Positions 3,639 through 63,538 of a stretch of DNA of 64,000 bases are shown in pieces. The DNA comes from Gemmatimonadaceae bacterium (GTDB lineage: Bacteria; Gemmatimonadota; Gemmatimonadetes; Gemmatimonadales; Gemmatimonadaceae): positions 124,001 through 188,000 of the forward strand of contig DASXUN010000021.1 in assembly GCA_036504815.1 (NCBI GenBank), read 5' to 3'. How positions within the stretch are numbered: position 1 is the stretch's first letter; every line of letters starts with the position of its first letter. Under the pieces are notes generated by a model, which saw only the letters and a list, made by a program, of their open reading frames with translations, was not told the DNA's origin and did no database searches. Position numbers and translations under genes: made by a program.

Positions 3639-5225
3639 ATGTCCGCGTCTCCGTCGGCCGTCAGACACGGCGCGCCGGACGCAGTTGCCGACTTCGCGCG
3701 CCCGGATCTCGCGGTTCGTCCACTCGCGGTCATCCTGGCACTGACGCTCGTCGTGCACCTGGTGGCGACGGCCATCACGCCGTACGAACTGCACCGTGAT
3801 GAGTTCCTGTACCTGGCGATGGGGCGCCACCTCCAGCTGTGGCGCATGGACTTCCCGCCCGGCATCGCGATTCTCGCCGAGTGTGTGCGGGCCCTGCTGG
3901 GTGACTCGCTCTTCGCGGTGCGGCTTACCCCAGCGCTCGCCGGGACGGCGCTGGTGGCGTTAGCCGCCGTCTTGGCGCGTGAACTCAACGGTGGGCGGCA
4001 GGCACAGGTCTTCGCGGCGGTGCTGACCCTCTGCAACGTGCTCTTCATGCGGGCGGCAAGCCTCTTCCAGCCCGTCGTGTTCGATCAACTCTGGTGGAGC
4101 GTGGCGTTTGTCGCGTTGGCACGCATTGCGCGCACGCCTTCGCCGCGCTGGTGGATGCTGCTCGGCGCCGCCGGCGGCTTCGGGTTGCTGAACAAATGGA
4201 GCATTCTCTTCATTGGCGCCGGCATGCTCTCCGGAATGCTGCTGACGCCGCAACGGCGCGCGCTGCTCACTCCGTGGCCGTATGCGGCGCTGCTGCTCGC
4301 ATTGGTGATTGGCGCGCCAAGTATCGCGGGGCAGATCGCGCTTGACTGGCCATTGCGCGCCCAGATGGCGGGGCTGCAGGAAGCGCAACTCGGCCGTATC
4401 GGCATCGCCGAATACGCCGGGGTCCAGCTGCTCTTCAGCCCGTTCGGCTTTATCGTCGCGACTATTGGTCTGGTGGCGCTGCTGCGGTCCGACGCGTTCC
4501 GCCCGTATCGCGTGATCGGTGTGGCCTGCGCGACAACCTGGTTGTTGTTGCTCGCGTTGCAGGGCAAGTCGTACTACGTCGGCCCCATTTTTCCGGTCTT
4601 GTTTGCGGCCGGAGCGGCATTCATAGAACGCGTCGAGCGTGCACCGTGGCACGTCGCGTTGCGACGCACGCTGGTCACTGGGTGCGTGCTCTGGGGCGTC
4701 GTGACCCTGCCGCTTGGCTTGCCGATTCTCCCACCGGCCCAGATGGCCGCATACGCCGCGCATCTCGGCACCCGCGCCGCCACGACCACCAATTCCGGCA
4801 CCATCCTGCAGTTGCCGCAGGACTACGCCGACATGCGCGGATGGGAAGCCAAGGTGCGTGAGGTCGCGCGCGTCTATCAAAGTCTCTCGCCTCAGGAGCA
4901 ACGAGACGTCGTGATTCTCGCAAGCAACTATGGCCGGGCCGGCGCCATCGATTTCTACGGTCCGCGTTATGGACTCCCCCGCGCCGTCTGTCCGTGCGGC
5001 ACCTACTGGCAGTTCGGTCCCGGTGACAAGTCAGGCAACGTCATCTTGGCAGTCGGCATCGATCCCCAGCGACTGCGCGAGGCCGCCGATTCGGTCGCCC
5101 TGGTTGCCACCGTTCGCGAGCCGTGGGGGGTGGAGGAGGAACGCGAAGTCCCCATCAGCGTCGTGCGCGGCACGCGCCGCTCGTTGCAGTCTGTCTGGCC
5201 CGAACTCGGCCCCGGATACCGATAG
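3639..5225 (+). CDS. GT39/ArnT-like polytopic membrane glycosyltransferase
   Basis: A 528-residue membrane protein with a short polar N-terminus, then about ten to eleven hydrophobic helices and a soluble C-terminal domain of about 130 residues. The first extracytoplasmic loop holds ELHRDEFLYLAMGRHL followed by DFPPG, the acidic DE-type motif of the PMT/ArnT (GT39/GT83) superfamily that uses polyprenyl-phosphate sugars. The ATG at 3639 was chosen because it follows the synthetase stop by one base, implying translational coupling; no clear Shine-Dalgarno is seen, and an upstream reading would overlap the previous gene. The sugar acceptor (lipid, protein or the NRPS product) cannot be told from sequence. 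Coupling to the synthetase suggests modification of a cell-envelope product (inference). Confidence 0.8.
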   Translation: MSASPSAVRHGAPDAVADFARPDLAVRPLAVILALTLVVHLVATAITPYELHRDEFLYLAMGRHLQLWRMDFPPGIAILAECVRALLGDSLFAVRLTPALAGTALVALAAVLARELNGGRQAQVFAAVLTLCNVLFMRAASLFQPVVFDQLWWSVAFVALARIARTPSPRWWMLLGAAGGFGLLNKWSILFIGAGMLSGMLLTPQRRALLTPWPYAALLLALVIGAPSIAGQIALDWPLRAQMAGLQEAQLGRIGIAEYAGVQLLFSPFGFIVATIGLVALLRSDAFRPYRVIGVACATTWLLLLALQGKSYYVGPIFPVLFAAGAAFIERVERAPWHVALRRTLVTGCVLWGVVTLPLGLPILPPAQMAAYAAHLGTRAATTTNSGTILQLPQDYADMRGWEAKVREVARVYQSLSPQEQRDVVILASNYGRAGAIDFYGPRYGLPRAVCPCGTYWQFGPGDKSGNVILAVGIDPQRLREAADSVALVATVREPWGVEEEREVPISVVRGTRRSLQSVWPELGPGYR

Positions 5226-5280
5226 CCCGCGCGTGCCGGAAGAAACGCAGAGCGCCCGGACGATCCCTGGTCCCGGCGCT

Positions 5281-5357
5281 CTGTTGTTTCTCTGTTGTTT
5301 CTCTGTTGTTTCTCTGTTGTTTCTCTGTTGTTTCTCTGTTGTTTCTCTGTTGTCTCT
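5281..5357. repeat. 11-bp tandem repeat array, locus 1 (7 units)
   Basis: Six perfect copies of CTGTTGTTTCT and one CTGTTGTCTCT (complement CAACAGAGAAA/CAACAGAGAGA) in strict 11-bp phase. On the minus strand the array begins 12 bases after the 3' end of tRNA-Cys. It has no dyad symmetry and cannot fold as a simple terminator. The same unit recurs at 38804-38858, 49394-49426 and 53556-53599. Confidence 0.95.
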
Positions 5358-5368
5358 CTGCAGTTAAG

Positions 5369-5440
5369 AGGCGCCGGTCGGAATCGAACCGACGAATGAG
5401 AGATTTGCAGTCTCCTGCCTTACCACTTGGCTACGGCGCC
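5369..5440 (-). tRNA. tRNA-Cys (anticodon GCA)
   Basis: On the minus strand the sequence folds as a cloverleaf. The 7-bp acceptor stem is GGCGCCG/CGGCGCC, the T arm contains GGTTCGATTCC, and the anticodon stem GGAGA/TCTCT closes the loop CTGCAAA with anticodon GCA. The discriminator base is U (5369), characteristic of tRNA-Cys. CCA is not encoded. The 11-bp repeat array lies just beyond the 3' end. Confidence 0.95.
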
Positions 5441-38785: not shown

Positions 38786-38803
38786 CCCCGTCCCCATTGT
38801 AGT

Positions 38804-38858
38804 CTGTTGTCTTTCTGTTGTCTCTCTGTTGTCTCTCTGTTGTCTCTCTGTTTTCTCT
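38804..38858. repeat. 11-bp tandem repeat array, locus 2 (5 units), upstream of nagB
   Basis: Units CTGTTGTCTTT, three times CTGTTGTCTCT, and CTGTTTTCTCT in 11-bp phase, ending 11 bp before the nagB ATG. Unlike the other loci, here the CTGTTG strand is the coding strand of both neighbouring genes and the array occupies the leader of the downstream gene. Confidence 0.95.
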
Positions 38859-38869
38859 CTGCTTTTACT

Positions 38870-39676
38870 ATGCGCATCATCATTCACGACACTTACGAGG
38901 CGATGAGCAAGTGGACCGCTCACACCATCGCCACCAAGATCAACGCCTTCAATCCGGCCAAGGACCGTCCGTTCGTCCTCGGCCTGCCGACCGGCTCCTC
39001 ACCCATCGGGACCTACCAGCACCTGGTCAGCCTGCACCGGCAGGGCAAGGTCTCGTTCAAGCACGTCGTCACGTTCAACATGGACGAATACGTCGGGCTG
39101 CCTGAGACGCACCCGGAGAGCTACCATCACTTCATGTGGCACCATCTCTTCAGCCACGTGGACATCCCCCAGGAGAATGTCAACATCCTGAACGGCAACG
39201 CCCGCGATCTGGAGGAAGAGTGCGACGACTACGAGGAGCGCATCCGGAAGATCGGCGGCATCCAGCTCTTTCTCGGCGGCATCGGGGCCGACGGCCACAT
39301 CGCGTTCAATGAACCGGGTTCGTCGCTCTCCTCGCGCACGCGCATCAAGACGCTGACGCATGACACGCGCGTGGCCAATGCCCGATTCTTCGGCAACGAT
39401 CCGAACAAGGTGCCCAAGACGGCGTTGACCGTGGGCGTCGGCACCGTGATGGACGCGCACGAGGTGATGATCCTGGTCAGCGGTCATGGCAAGGCGCGCG
39501 CGCTGCAGAAGGTGGTCGAGGAGGGCGTCAATCACATGTGGACCGTCTCCCAGTTGCAGCTGCATCGCCACGGCATGATCATCTGCGACGAGGAGTCCAC
39601 CTATGAGCTGAAGGTGGGAACGGTGAAGTACTTCAAGGACATCGAAGGCGAAAACCTCAAGCTGCCGGTACTCTGA
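38870..39676 (+). CDS. nagB: Glucosamine-6-phosphate deaminase
   Basis: 268 residues, the usual NagB length. [18 protein letters not shown] (phosphate loop), FNMDEYVGL (catalytic Asp), [24 protein letters not shown] (catalytic His/Glu lid and phosphate-binding Ser/Arg) and the C-terminal allosteric region are all present. It converts glucosamine-6-phosphate to fructose-6-phosphate and ammonia. ATG 38870 was chosen because upstream frames run into the 11-bp array; there is no Shine-Dalgarno in front of it. The gene for a DUF4954 protein follows 15 bp downstream. Confidence 0.95.
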
Positions 39677-47185: not shown

Positions 47186-49393
47186 ATGAACCCTCGCGTT
47201 GCCGCTATCAGGGCCATTGCCTCGCGCGTGGTCACACCGCCCGACATCCCTTCCACCAAGGAAGGTGGAGAGCCGATCTCGCACTACTTCGGATCGCTCA
47301 CCTTCGGCGCGCGCCAGATGCGCGACAAGCTCCCCAAGGAAGTCTTCGCCAAGCTCAACTCGGCCATCCGACTCGGCAAGAAACTCGACGTCGACATCGC
47401 CCCCACCGTCGCCCAGGTCATCAAGGAATGGGCGATGTCGAACGGCGTCACCCACTTCTGCCACTGGTTCCAGCCGCAGACGGGACTCACCGCCGAGAAG
47501 CACGACGCCTTCTTCTCGTTCGATGAGAACAAGCTCCCCATGGAGTCGTTCACCGGCGAGCAGCTCATCCAGAGCGAGCCTGATGCGTCGTCGTTCCCGT
47601 CCGGCGGCCTCCGCGCCACGTGGGAAGCGCGCGGCTACACCGCGTGGAACCCGGCGTCGCCCGTCTTCATCATGGATTCGGCCGGCACCAAGACGCTGTG
47701 CATCCCCTCGGTCTTCATCGGCTACAACGGCGAGGCGCTCGACGAAGTCACCCCGCTCCTCCGCTCGTCCGACGTGCTCTCGCACAAGGCCATGGAGGTG
47801 CTGGAGCTACTCGGCGATAAAGGCGCGATGCGCGTCTACACGACGATGGGCGCCGAGCAGGAGTACTTCCTCATTGACCGCGGCCACTTCTCGCTGCGCC
47901 CCGATCTCGTGATGGGCGGCCGCACGCTCATCGGCGCCCCGCCGCCGCGCGGACAGCAGCTCGAAGACCACTACTTCGGCGGCATCCCCGAACGCGTGCA
48001 GGCCTGCATCGCCGAAGTGGAGTACGAGCTCTATCGCCTGGGCGTGCCCATCGTCACGCGCCATAACGAAGTCGCGCCCTGCCAGTTCGAGATGGCCCCC
48101 GTCTTCGAGGAGACGGACATCGCCACCGACCACAACCAGCTCGTGATGGCGATCCTCCGCAAGGTGGCCATGCGGCACGGACTCGTCGCGCTACTGCACG
48201 AGAAGCCGTTCGCCGGCATCAACGGCTCCGGCAAGCACTGCAACTGGTCGATGTCCGTCGCCTCCGACAACGAGCTCGATGGCGTCAACCTGCTCAAGCC
48301 CGGCAAGACACCGCACCAGAACCTGCGCTTCCTGCTGTTCCTCGCCGCGGTCCTCAAGGCCGTCTTCAAGCATCAGGGCCTCCTGCGCGCCGGCATCGCC
48401 ACCTCCGGCAACGAGCACCGACTCGGCGCCAACGAAGCGCCCCCGGCCATCATCTCGGTGTTCCTCGGCGCGATGCTCACCAATATGATCGAGGACATCG
48501 TCGCCGGCCGTACAGGCACGTCAGCCGATGCCGCCATGATCAAGCTCGGCGTCGCCAAGCTCCCCGAGATTGCGCAGGACAACACCGACCGCAACCGCAC
48601 GTCGCCGCTCGCGTTCACCGGCGCCAAGTTCGAGTTCCGCGCCGTCGGCTCGTCGCAGTCCATCGCCTTCCCGGTGATGGTGCTCAATACGGTGGTCGCC
48701 GAGGCCATTGGCGAGCTCACCGCCGACCTGAAGGACGAACTCAAGAAGACCAAGAGCATTGACGACGCGGTGCTCAAGGTCGTGCGCATCGCCTTCAAGG
48801 AGACGGCGTCGATCCGCTTCGAGGGGAACAACTACTCCGAGGAATGGGTGAAGGAGGCCAAGACGCGCGGCTTGCTCAACCTGCGTCGCACGCCCGAAGC
48901 GCTCGACTATCTCAAGGTCCCGACCACGCGGAAGCTCTTCACGGCACTCGGCATTCTGTCCGAGGCCGAACTCGAGAGCCGGTATCACGTGCGCATCGAG
49001 CGCTATACGAAGGACATGCTCATCGAGATGCACACCATGCGCGAGATGGCGGACACGATGGTCATCCCCGCGGCGTTCAAGTACCTCGGCGTCGTCGCCG
49101 ATGCCGCGCAGAAGTCCAAGGCCGCCGGCATCAAGACCAACCCCGCGGCCGCCGCGGCAACGACGCTCGCCAGGCAGATCACCGATCTCCAGAAGCGCAC
49201 CGCCGCGCTCCGCGCGGCCGCCGAGAAGGGCGACTCGATGCACGAGACGCCCGGCAAGTGCGCGCAGTTCCTCACGAGCACCGGAGCGGATTGCATGGCC
49301 AAGGTGCGAGAGGTTTGCGATAGCTTGGAACTCACTATTGGTGACGAGTTCTGGCCCCTACCGAGATATCGTGAGATGGTGTTTCCGGTTTAG
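47186..49393 (+). CDS. glnN: Glutamine synthetase type III (GSIII)
   Basis: 735 residues, the length of GSIII, much longer than GSI. Motifs: the N-terminal FGSLTFGARQMRDKLPKEVF and THFCHWFQPQTGLTAEKHDAF block, GAEQEYFLID (metal Glu), TRHNEVAPCQFEMAPVFEE, DHNQLVMAILRKVAMRHGL, INGSGKHCNWSMS (substrate loop) and LGANEAPPAIISVFLG. It makes glutamine from glutamate, ammonia and ATP in the cytoplasm. ATG 47186 is preceded only by weak GAG. A strong sigma-70 promoter lies upstream, and an 11-bp repeat array begins at the base after the stop codon, merging with a terminator hairpin. A second glutamine synthetase (glnA) lies 5 kb downstream. Confidence 0.95.
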   Translation: MNPRVAAIRAIASRVVTPPDIPSTKEGGEPISHYFGSLTFGARQMRDKLPKEVFAKLNSAIRLGKKLDVDIAPTVAQVIKEWAMSNGVTHFCHWFQPQTGLTAEKHDAFFSFDENKLPMESFTGEQLIQSEPDASSFPSGGLRATWEARGYTAWNPASPVFIMDSAGTKTLCIPSVFIGYNGEALDEVTPLLRSSDVLSHKAMEVLELLGDKGAMRVYTTMGAEQEYFLIDRGHFSLRPDLVMGGRTLIGAPPPRGQQLEDHYFGGIPERVQACIAEVEYELYRLGVPIVTRHNEVAPCQFEMAPVFEETDIATDHNQLVMAILRKVAMRHGLVALLHEKPFAGINGSGKHCNWSMSVASDNELDGVNLLKPGKTPHQNLRFLLFLAAVLKAVFKHQGLLRAGIATSGNEHRLGANEAPPAIISVFLGAMLTNMIEDIVAGRTGTSADAAMIKLGVAKLPEIAQDNTDRNRTSPLAFTGAKFEFRAVGSSQSIAFPVMVLNTVVAEAIGELTADLKDELKKTKSIDDAVLKVVRIAFKETASIRFEGNNYSEEWVKEAKTRGLLNLRRTPEALDYLKVPTTRKLFTALGILSEAELESRYHVRIERYTKDMLIEMHTMREMADTMVIPAAFKYLGVVADAAQKSKAAGIKTNPAAAAATTLARQITDLQKRTAALRAAAEKGDSMHETPGKCAQFLTSTGADCMAKVREVCDSLELTIGDEFWPLPRYREMVFPV

Positions 49394-49426
49394 AGAAACA
49401 ACAGAGAGCCAACAGAGAGACAACAG
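49394..49426. repeat. 11-bp tandem repeat array, locus 3 (3 units), directly after the glnN stop
   Basis: AGAAACAACAG, AGAGCCAACAG and AGAGACAACAG follow the TAG stop codon with no gap. The last unit supplies the foot of the terminator stem that follows. The orientation is CAACAGAG on the coding strand. Confidence 0.92.
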
Positions 49427-49459
49427 AGGCCCGCCATCTCCACTTGGGCGGGCCTCTGT
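49423..49459 (+). terminator. Terminator hairpin downstream of glnN
   Basis: A 13-bp stem (49423-49435 with 49447-49459; ACAGAGGCCCGCC type) with an 11-base loop. It starts inside the last unit of the 11-bp array. No T tract follows, so efficiency is uncertain. Confidence 0.7.
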
Positions 49460-49463
49460 GCAT

Positions 49464-49507
49464 CACCTTCGCGCCCCTTCGCGCCCTTCAATCTTCGTGG
49501 TGGCAGT
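49464..49507. repeat. TTCGCGCCC/CTTCGTGGTGGCAGT repeat, copy 1 (family D)
   Basis: A 24-nt block of CTTCGCGCCC words (49466-49489), three variable bases, then CTTCGTGGTGGCAGT (49493-49507). The same 24 + 3 + 15 arrangement recurs in the same orientation at 50900-50941, on the other side of the gene at 49520-50788. No gene is seen in 49460-49519. Confidence 0.85.
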
Positions 49508-50868: not shown

Positions 50869-50941
50869 ACCTTCGCGCCTCTTCACGCCCGCTCGTGCGC
50901 CTTCGCGCCCCTTCGCGCCCTTCGCCCTTCGTGGTGGCAGT
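50869..50941. repeat. TTCGCGCCC/CTTCGTGGTGGCAGT repeat, copy 2 (family D)
   Basis: The core 50900-50941 matches 49466-49507 in 39 of 42 positions, with all three differences in the central triplet. An additional degenerate CTTCGCGCC tract extends to 50869. It lies in the 216-bp divergent gap before the gene at 51005. Confidence 0.85.
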
Positions 50942-53516: not shown

Positions 53517-53555
53517 GAGCGGATCAAGCCGCTCGGAAGTGTAAGGAAGAATCTT

Positions 53556-53599
53556 CTGTTGTCTCTCTGTTGTTTCTCTGTTTTCTCTCTGTTGTTTTT
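53556..53599. repeat. 11-bp tandem repeat array, locus 4 (4 units), directly after the glnA stop
   Basis: CTGTTGTCTCT, CTGTTGTTTCT, CTGTTTTCTCT and CTGTTGTTTTT on the plus strand. On the glnA strand this reads TGA followed at once by AAAACAACAG and further CAACAGAG units. Same orientation relative to the upstream gene as at glnN. Confidence 0.95.
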
Positions 53600-54960
53600 C
53601 AGTACTTCGCCAAGTACTGCGCCAGCTCCCACTCCGACACCTGTGTCACGTACTCTCTCCACTCCTGTCTCTTGGCATCTAGGAAGTGTCGAGTGACATG
53701 CTCGCCGAGCGCCGCGCACATCTCCTTGTCCTTCTCGAGTTCGTCGCACGCCTCGTTGAGGTCGTGCGGCAGGTCGTCGATGCGCAGGCGCCGCTTCTCG
53801 CGGAAGCTCATCTCCCAGATGTTCTCGTCCACCGGCTCGCGGCTCGAGGCCTCGGTCTCGAGCCCATCCAGTCCGGCCGCGAGCATGACCGCGAGCGCCA
53901 GGTACGGGTTGGCGCTGGGATCGGGCGACCGCAACTCCACGCGCGTTCCCGTGCCGCGGCGCGCCGGCACGCGAATCAGCGGCGACCGATTGCGCATCGA
54001 CCACGCGACGTTCACCGGCGCCTCGAATCCGGGCACGAGCCGCTTGTACGAGTTCACCAGCGGATTGGTGATCGCGCTCATCCCCCGGGCGTGCCGCAAC
54101 AGGCCGCCAATGTAGTGGTGTGCCACCGATGAGAGCTCAAACTCGCCCTTCGGATCGAAGAAGGCGTTCTGCCCGTCCTTGAACAGCGACTGGTGCGTGT
54201 GCATGCCGCTGCCGTTCTGTCCATAGATCGGCTTGGGCATGAACGAGGCGTGCATGCCGAACTGTTGCGCCACGTTGCGCACCACGAACCGGAAGGTGGC
54301 AAGCGCATCGGCCGTGGTGAGCGCGTCGGCGTACCGGAAATCGATCTCGTGCTGTCCGTGCGCCACTTCGTGATGCGCCGCCTCGATCTCGAATCCCATC
54401 TGCTCCAGCGCATCCACGATCGCGCGCCGCGCATCTTCGCCGAGGTCCACCGGGCCGAGATCGAAGTACGACCCCACATCATGCGTCGTCGTGCTTGGCG
54501 CGCCGTCGGGCCCGAGCCGGAACAGGAAGAACTCCGCCTCCATCCCGGCGAACATCGTGTACCCCAGTCGTGCGGCGCGCGCGACCTGTCGCTTCAGGAC
54601 GCCGCGAGGATCGCCGGCAAAGGGCTCGCCTTCCGGCGTCGTGATGTCGCAGATGAGCCGCGCCACCCGCGCCTGCGGGTCGCTCCACGGGAAGATCCGG
54701 AAGGTCTCCAGGTCCGGCCGCAGCAGCATGTCGCTCTCCTCCACCCGCACGAAGCCTTCGATGGAGGAGCCGTCGAACAGGATGTCACCCTCGAGCGCCT
54801 TCTTCAGTTGCGACGTCGGAACTTCGACGTTCTTGTTGACGCCGAGAATGTCGGTGAACTGCAGCCGGACGAAGCGCACTTGATGCTGCGCCACAATCGC
54901 CATCAGGTCTTTGGCGGTCACGCCACGCAGGTCGCTCAGCAGGGCTCGAGAGGTGGTCAC
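53599..54960 (-). CDS. glnA: Glutamine synthetase type I (GSI-alpha-like)
   Basis: 453 residues. FTDILGVNKNVEVP, FDGSSIEGFVRVEESDMLLRPD, GMEAEFFLFR (metal site), HHEVAHGQHEIDFRY, MPKPIYGQNGSGMHTHQSLFKDG and ANPYLALAVMLAAGLDG are classic GSI motifs. Its length and the lack of the GSI-beta adenylylation segment point to the alpha type, regulated by feedback rather than by adenylylation (family knowledge). The GTG at 54960 is the only plausible start near the conserved N-terminus; no strong Shine-Dalgarno is seen. It is the second glutamine synthetase in the window and, like glnN, is followed immediately by an 11-bp array. Confidence 0.95.
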   Translation of the reverse strand: MTTSRALLSDLRGVTAKDLMAIVAQHQVRFVRLQFTDILGVNKNVEVPTSQLKKALEGDILFDGSSIEGFVRVEESDMLLRPDLETFRIFPWSDPQARVARLICDITTPEGEPFAGDPRGVLKRQVARAARLGYTMFAGMEAEFFLFRLGPDGAPSTTTHDVGSYFDLGPVDLGEDARRAIVDALEQMGFEIEAAHHEVAHGQHEIDFRYADALTTADALATFRFVVRNVAQQFGMHASFMPKPIYGQNGSGMHTHQSLFKDGQNAFFDPKGEFELSSVAHHYIGGLLRHARGMSAITNPLVNSYKRLVPGFEAPVNVAWSMRNRSPLIRVPARRGTGTRVELRSPDPSANPYLALAVMLAAGLDGLETEASSREPVDENIWEMSFREKRRLRIDDLPHDLNEACDELEKDKEMCAALGEHVTRHFLDAKRQEWREYVTQVSEWELAQYLAKY

Positions 54961-62812: not shown

Positions 62813-63538
62813 ATGCTGAGCGGCGATCTCAACGACAAGCACATGGCGGCGGACCGGGACGACGAGCCGGAGGATTCCGGCTACGGCGGCGGCATGAGCT
62901 ATGACGACGAGGACGACGAGGACGGTGGCTGGGCGATCAACAAGGACCATTCCGATTCGCTCTGGGATAGCGCGGAGGAATCGGACGACGAGGACGAGGA
63001 GGAGCCGGGTGTGCTCCTTGACGCGGGAGAGGAAGAGGATGACGCCGACCTGTTCGGCGCCGGCCTTGGTGAACCCCGTCGGGCGTCCAAGCCGAAGCCG
63101 GCACCAAAGCCGGTGGCCCCGCCGGTCGTGGTTCCGGTGCCCGTACCGGTCGCGGCGGCCCCGGTTAAGCCCGTGGCCAAGCCCGTGGCCAAGCCCGTGG
63201 CCAAGCCCGCCGCCAAACCCGCAGCCAAGCCCGCGGCCAAGCCCGCGGCCAAGCCCGTGACCAAGCCCGCGGCGAAGAAGGCATCCAAGAAGGCCGCCAA
63301 GAAGGCCGCCCCGAAGAAGGCGGCCAAGAAGGTTGCCAAGAAGCCGGCCAAGAAGGCCGCGAAGGCCGCCCCGAAGAAGGCCGTGAAGAAGGTGGCCAAG
63401 AAACCGGCCAGGAAGCTGGCCAAGAAGACCGCGGCAAAGAAGCCGCTCAAGAAGGCAGCCCCCAAGAAGGCCGCCAAGAAACCGGTCAAGAAGGCCGCGC
63501 CGAAGAAGGCCGTCAAGAAGGCGAAGCAGAAGAAGTAG
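62813..63538 (+). CDS. Acidic-headed, Lys/Ala/Pro-rich histone-H1-like protein
   Basis: 241 residues in three parts. An acidic N-terminus (about 1-88, many Asp/Glu, e.g. SYDDEDDEDGGW, EESDDEDEEEPG), a Pro/Val hinge (about 95-120), and a basic tail of KPVAKP/KPAAKP repeats followed by KKAAPKKA-type repeats. The tail resembles eukaryotic histone H1 and bacterial H1-like nucleoid proteins (Hc1, AlgP, BpH3). The acidic head is unusual and could mask the tail or bind partners. ATG 62813 has GGAGG six bases upstream. It probably binds DNA or polyanions; not proven. Confidence 0.75.
   Translation: MLSGDLNDKHMAADRDDEPEDSGYGGGMSYDDEDDEDGGWAINKDHSDSLWDSAEESDDEDEEEPGVLLDAGEEEDDADLFGAGLGEPRRASKPKPAPKPVAPPVVVPVPVPVAAAPVKPVAKPVAKPVAKPAAKPAAKPAAKPAAKPVTKPAAKKASKKAAKKAAPKKAAKKVAKKPAKKAAKAAPKKAVKKVAKKPARKLAKKTAAKKPLKKAAPKKAAKKPVKKAAPKKAVKKAKQKK
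63163..63260. repeat. 12-bp coding tandem repeat (AAGCCCGTGGCC type)
   Basis: About eight consecutive 12-bp units such as AAGCCCGTGGCC and AAGCCCGCGGCC encode the KPVA/KPAA repeats of the H1-like protein. The first three units are nearly identical in DNA, so length variation by slippage is likely. Confidence 0.85.

Follow-up and report, generated by a model that had tools for sequence, protein, structure and literature searches.

A dispersed 11-bp tandem repeat family at gene edges in one Gemmatimonadota genus, with a preference for four units and an outward purine strand

Repeat arrays in the window

The window, by which is meant the whole stretch of 64,000 nucleotides analysed here, carries four arrays of an 11-bp tandem unit. 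Tandem Repeats Finder (TRF) reports period 11 at 5279-5360, 38803-38861, 49392-49428 and 53555-53597, with match percentages of 98, 95, 88 and 86 %, respectively. A mismatch search agrees with this: with one mismatch allowed, CAACAGAGARA is matched 15 times, where 0.9 are expected and no more than 4 occur in 100 dinucleotide shuffles. The original prediction, made by reading the letters, had named these four arrays, and both searches confirm them. Their placement beside stop codons, tRNA-Cys and a start codon was also given correctly, within 1-2 bases.

The array of seven units (5281..5357) has its pyrimidine strand on the plus strand, and on the minus strand it is a purine array behind tRNA-Cys (5368..5440, minus), whose 3' end points toward it. 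Directly upstream of this array lies a plus-strand hairpin (5247..5284; dG -28.1, z -5.3), which stands behind a gene with a Pfam PMT_2 domain (3639-5225). The second array (38804..38858, plus) has its pyrimidine strand as the sense strand and ends 11 nt before the start of a nagB-like gene of the glucosamine-6-phosphate isomerase family (38870..39676, plus; PF01182); it is a 5'-edge case and has no hairpin. The third array, of three units (49394..49426, minus), is on the plus strand a purine array immediately 3' of a stop codon, that of a type III glutamine synthetase gene (47228-49393) which ends at 49393. Directly behind it is a hairpin on the plus strand (49423..49459; dG -28.7, z -4.6) that is common to two convergent genes. 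The fourth array, of four units (53556..53598), has its pyrimidine strand on the plus strand, and on the minus strand it forms a purine array right after the stop, at 53599, of a GlnA-type glutamine synthetase gene (53599-54960, minus). Hence, two of the four arrays directly adjoin a strong hairpin with a dG of about -28. The arrays folded alone give a dG of 0, in keeping with the lack of dyad symmetry noted in the original prediction, and gathering-score matches to Rfam 15 within the window are tRNA only, with none for the arrays.

Two other repeats of the window may be mentioned. The 10-bp CCTTCGCGCC repeats near gene edges at 49466-49486 and 50870-50925 have a similar polarity and represent another dispersed family. 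At 62813-63538 there is a lysine/alanine-rich open reading frame with 12-bp coding repeats (AAGAAGGCCGCC), which has a histone-H1-like look and no Pfam match.

Extent in the genome and taxonomic spread

The genome that holds the window (G000; 3.5 Mb, 99.4 % complete) has 259 matches to a two-unit pattern with at most two mismatches, and the family is therefore dispersed, as the original prediction had supposed when it proposed a genome-wide scan. For counting and placement, 1.24 Mb of this genome (about 35 %) was picked regardless of arrays, with the window included. This unbiased sample contains 38 arrays, 35 of them intergenic, and Markov-simulated sequence contains 0. Genes were called with a purpose-written codon-usage caller together with ARAGORN; stops are exact, and starts are those of a simple caller.

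All genomes compared are metagenome-assembled genomes (MAGs). About 100 near-identical array loci are found in the bacterium and its closest relatives within Gemmatimonadota. Of the 11 genomes of the genus, 9 have at least one array match, and the 137 other genomes searched in the family have none; likewise, the two-unit pattern has no match in 49 genomes of the family and order. Within the genus, the number of two-unit matches per genome ranges from 0 to 205, and the consensus varies by species, for example CTCTGTTTTCT in G001. Five perfect units occur at 31 loci in a collection of genome contigs, all of them in Gemmatimonadota MAGs. The array family is restricted to one Gemmatimonadota genus, and no published description of it was found in the papers searched. 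Short phage-like IMG/VR contigs (L062-L069; GC 0.38-0.47) carry 11-bp arrays that mix CTCTCTGTTGT and CTCTCTATCGT, which is probably an independent occurrence of the motif.

Placement and polarity at gene edges

Of the 35 intergenic arrays of the unbiased 1.24 Mb, 29 have a gene edge no more than 12 nt from the 3' end of their pyrimidine strand, and only 1 has an edge at its opposite end. If the arrays were spread uniformly over these intergenic regions, 8.1 contacts would be expected, and 1000 simulations gave 16 at most; the random placement that the original prediction had weighed against its own claim can thus be set aside. Since the pyrimidine end meets the edge and the other end almost never does, the purine strand reads outward from the gene. 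The strand asymmetry noticed in the unit is borne out by this polarity.

Most of the contacts (22 of 29) are with the 3' ends of coding sequences or tRNAs; there, the sense strand has the order stop-(AGAGAMACAAC)n. The remaining 7 are with 5' ends; here, pyrimidines dominate the sense strand as far as the start, and the purine strand is antisense. Arrays mark both kinds of gene edge, 3' and 5'; the proposal that they sit at 3' ends holds as a concentration there and fails as an exclusive rule. In a TRF test, the purine strand was sense behind stops in 39 of 39 cases and antisense ahead of starts in 8 of 8. Five sister MAGs, at loci chosen for long arrays, show contact of the pyrimidine end in 35 arrays (32 at 3' ends) and of the other end in 3. 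Convergent intergenic regions are enriched 2.4-fold in arrays (p 0.03), and the phase of the unit relative to the stop codon is fixed only in part.

At 5' edges, the array occupies the Shine-Dalgarno position, and a Shine-Dalgarno sequence is found in only about 30 % of the genes of this genome. For example, a divergent intergenic region (G000:C21 344285-344464) has one array reaching each of its two start codons, and the two predicted leaders consist of pyrimidine-rich repeats and lack a Shine-Dalgarno sequence. The orthologous region of G003 has GAGGAG ahead of one start.

The four-unit block

Units were counted in the unbiased sequence as successive cores ACAACAGA separated by linkers of 3 nt. 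Exactly four units are present in 28 of 37 arrays, beside two arrays of three units, four of five, two of six and one of seven, and a second-order Markov control gives none. The preference persists with two mismatches allowed (four units in 24 of 41). The bases preceding the four cores read AGAG in 13 of 41 arrays against 6.9 expected under independence (p 0.0005), and units 1 and 3 are unlike units 2 and 4 (p 0.0017). On the simplest reading, the array is apparently an element of about 45 bp made of two copies of a 22-bp dimer and copied as a block. Variation is also uneven within the unit, as TCT varies in about 1 % of units and the base preceding it in about 18 %.

The 11-bp unit AGAGAMACAAC has no G run, and a G-quadruplex is rejected for want of G-tracts.

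Paired arrays and hairpins

Where two arrays share one spacer, their order is purine-core-pyrimidine in 24 of 24 pairs and the reverse in 0; 11 of these pairs come from the unbiased set, 6 from other stretches of the same genome and 7 from G005. The sequences of the cores are unrelated, and they often form a GC hairpin beginning close to where the array stops. For the 56 nt counted from the array end, the mean folding energy is -21.4, against -16.2 after shuffling. At convergent array ends that have a hairpin, it starts 42-51 nt past the stop (26-76 in controls) and is followed by 4.2 T in 8 positions against 2.4 of 8 in controls.

The original prediction had described the arrays as unlike terminators, a view that is not supported because many of them directly adjoin a terminator-like hairpin. 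A GC hairpin followed by a T-rich tract is present at many convergent sites and absent at many tandem ones, with no enrichment over array-free ends. Array ends show no excess of strong hairpins over 3' ends without an array (0.72 against 0.62, and 0.40 against 0.43). Since their frequency equals that of the array-free controls, the idea that arrays are specific marks of terminators was rejected. Terminators coexist with arrays, and it does not follow from the data that termination is what the arrays are for.

Other repeats with the same polarity

When 1.5 Mb of the genome was scanned with TRF, without a given motif, for repeats of 7-14 bp at most 30 nt away from a gene edge, those other than the 11-mer proved to be purine-outward as well, in 50 of 57 cases at 3' ends and in 25 of 28 at 5' ends. 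The commonest of these families in the genome is a heptamer, GATGGCN on its purine strand. It has three units in 7 arrays, four in 37 and five in 11, with none above two in a Markov control, and its polarity is outward in 35 and inward in 6. Heptamer arrays at gene edges, such as L187 1630-1734, sometimes reach up to 15 units and are independent of the 11-mer. Array-free spacers show a weak skew of the same sign. The purine-outward rule is not tied to the sequence of the 11-mer.

A 10-mer sister family, ACGACAGAGT (CTCTGTCGTN), is likewise purine-outward, for example at G000:C3 143177-143259 and C21 192956-193040, among others. Among 298 genomes of the phylum, G000 and G002 alone have the 10-mer CTCTGTCGTN. 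It has no clear four-unit mode, the counts of arrays with three and four units being 10 and 2 with one mismatch and 7 and 7 with two.

The period of the 11-mer had been noted as close to one helical turn, an explanation that is weakened because the 7-bp and 10-bp families of the same genome obey the same placement rule. A requirement for a fixed length or helical turn was rejected, as the unit count is the same in blocks of 28 bp (7-bp unit) and of 44 bp (11-bp unit). The observation behind the original prediction is confirmed and its interpretation is partly supported; the four-unit rule, the purine-outward rule and the purine-core-pyrimidine pairing are features that go beyond it.

Turnover at orthologous sites

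The position of the array is kept at several orthologous sites while the unit and the copy number turn over. Behind the type III glutamine synthetase gene, the 11-mer is present in G000 and G006, a related variant in G001, and other repeats of about 10 bp in G005 and G010, with no clear array in G002 and G003; a GC hairpin is found there in most of the genomes compared. Ahead of nagB, the unit is of 11 bp in G000, G005 and G001 and of 10 bp in G010, and G003 lacks one. One shared site has four units per side in G000 and about eight and twelve in G005. At the site of another 11-mer pair of G000, G003 has the unrelated 9-10-bp repeats ACGGATTGA / ATCCGTGTC in the same inverted layout. The ACGGATTGA / ATCCGTGTC repeats flank a GC hairpin at L197 12088-12206 (G003:C10).

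Seven comparisons of sites with and without an array give a median spacer difference of 19 nt and a median array-length difference of 67 bp; the sample is small, some sites are used more than once, and in one comparison the other species carries a 10-bp array. Because spacer length shifts far less than array length, the comparisons suggest that spacer is replaced rather than added to, and simple insertion was rejected on the same ground, with n small. Neither target duplications nor clean empty sites were seen, and array-free relatives differ throughout the spacer.

Origin of the arrays

The account proposed here starts from the observed placement, polarity, copy number, block pattern, pairing, distribution and turnover of the arrays, and adds to them a copying process, overwriting, tolerance and effects on RNA, which we infer. 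The element is most likely tolerated and dispersing, lodged in terminator spacers. In full, a non-coding element of about 45 bp, 5'-AGAGARACAACAGAGAGACAACAGAGARACAACAGAGAGACAACAG-3' with four 11-bp units, would have spread within one Gemmatimonadota genus by a copying or conversion process that writes the block over existing spacer. Overwriting is proposed because, against array-free relatives, intergenic length changes much less than array length. Gene edges would be the places where the block is tolerated. At 3' ends, it may serve as a spacer, poor in U and without structure, that separates the stop codon or tRNA from the terminator hairpin, where one is present; between convergent genes, the array complement could provide a pyrimidine-rich tail behind the shared hairpin for opposing transcripts, giving a two-way terminator. 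The longer arrays, as in G005, may have grown by slippage out of the four-unit block. The main driver would be spread by copying together with tolerance, any benefit being secondary. To this whole chain, from a dispersing block that overwrites gene-edge spacer to its partial use as a terminator spacer or tail, we give about half of our credence. Neither an enzyme nor a process that would copy the block was found. Tolerance alone leaves unexplained the constant purine-outward direction, and also the four-unit count of the 7-bp family.

Mobilisation by a RAYT transposase, as in REPINs, was rejected. The RAYT domain (Y1_Tnp, PF01797) is present in 2 of the 11 genomes of the genus and has no match in G000, and it is absent from the array-rich G000, G004 and G008.

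Selection could account for the pattern instead. The array would then be a cis-element with four sites for an RNA- or DNA-binding protein, at mRNA 3' ends and in leaders before starts, and the count would be a binding requirement. The uneven constraint within the unit (TCT about 1 %, the preceding base 18 %), the position held across species despite sequence drift, the four-unit mode and the occupation of the Shine-Dalgarno position at 5' edges all fit such a role. However, the arrays are absent or nearly so at the same genes of sister species, the same sites have differing units that a single binding protein should not accept, the count recurs in the 7-bp family, and no candidate protein was found; we regard this as a serious but rather improbable explanation. 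It is unlikely, and somewhat more doubtful still, that the arrays are a dedicated termination module. In such a module, a hairpin and either an extended pyrimidine-rich tail or a tract that loads Rho would halt transcripts of either direction ahead of a neighbouring gene. The order of the pairs, without exception in 24, suits a two-way terminator, and so do the enrichment of convergent spacers and the hairpin, with its start close to the array end and its greater number of T behind it, but the hairpin is as frequent at array-free ends, and hairpin-free arrays lie in operons and directly ahead of start codons and tRNAs, where termination would be harmful. Least probable of all is the slippage-prone repeat that the original prediction had also offered, an ordinary microsatellite family whose positions are tolerated insertions only: it accords with the varying copy number at shared sites (4+4 against about 8+12) and with the longer arrays of G005, but one unit at about a hundred loci requires spreading, a single strand orientation meets the gene edge, and the sharp mode at four, which is not geometric, and the block-like variant pattern weaken it further.

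Comparison with known repeats

Small, dispersed and extragenic, and often in inverted pairs, the arrays resemble REP/REPIN elements. Their unit differs from those in being non-palindromic, and REP/REPIN is excluded for G000 because RAYT is absent from it, which agrees with the original prediction that the arrays are unlike REP. Bidirectional intrinsic terminators share with the convergent sites a purine spacer, a GC hairpin and a pyrimidine tail in both directions; in the arrays, by contrast, a tandem repeat some 44-55 nt long forms the tail, hairpins are missing from many tandem sites, and some arrays stand directly before starts. The TAACTGA heptamer repeats of Beggiatoaceae touch start codons and have no assigned function (MacGregor, 2015; PMC4679880). 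They are, like the 11-mer, short direct repeats in one orientation that touch starts at the Shine-Dalgarno position, whereas they occur in two to six copies and mostly before starts, and the 11-mer has a different unit and lies mostly behind stops.

The closest parallel is found in the heptamer repeats GGGAATC of Xanthomonas and GGGGAYT of Nostoc (Rehm et al., 2015; PMC4692102). The GGGAATC repeats have a clear four-unit preference, inverted pairs and shared sites that vary in length and sequence between sister species, and their purine strand is sense within 50 bp past stops and antisense within 50 bp ahead of starts (PMC4692102). Four units are the minimum for a G-quadruplex, as noted in that study, which did not find a function for the repeats (Rehm et al., 2015). 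The 11-mer arrays likewise prefer exactly four units (28 of 37), have a purine strand that is sense behind stops and antisense ahead of starts, form inverted pairs, and vary between species at shared sites. They differ in that the unit is 11 bp and not 7, without G-tracts and hence without a G-quadruplex, in their narrower contact with the gene edge, and in their confinement to one Gemmatimonadota genus.

The 7-bp GATGGCN, the 11-mer and the GGGAATC of Xanthomonas share the mode and the polarity, and G-quadruplexes are therefore unnecessary for this layout. As the 11-mer has no G-tracts, its count and layout need another cause, which may be a copying process or selection at gene ends. One possible, though tentative, extension is that several phyla share a sequence-independent process that builds tandem blocks, mostly of exactly four units and purine outward, over edge spacer, with CAACAGAGAGA, GATGGCN and GGGAATC as its different outputs. 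Two unrelated families of one genome and the Xanthomonas heptamers have in common the four-unit count and the purine-outward edge rule, which offers a simple way to seek such elements in other genomes, and the contrast between sister species (0 to 205 two-unit matches) makes the copying and selection ideas testable. The layout of the 11-mer arrays matches the repeat class of Xanthomonas, minus the G-quadruplex potential proposed for it.
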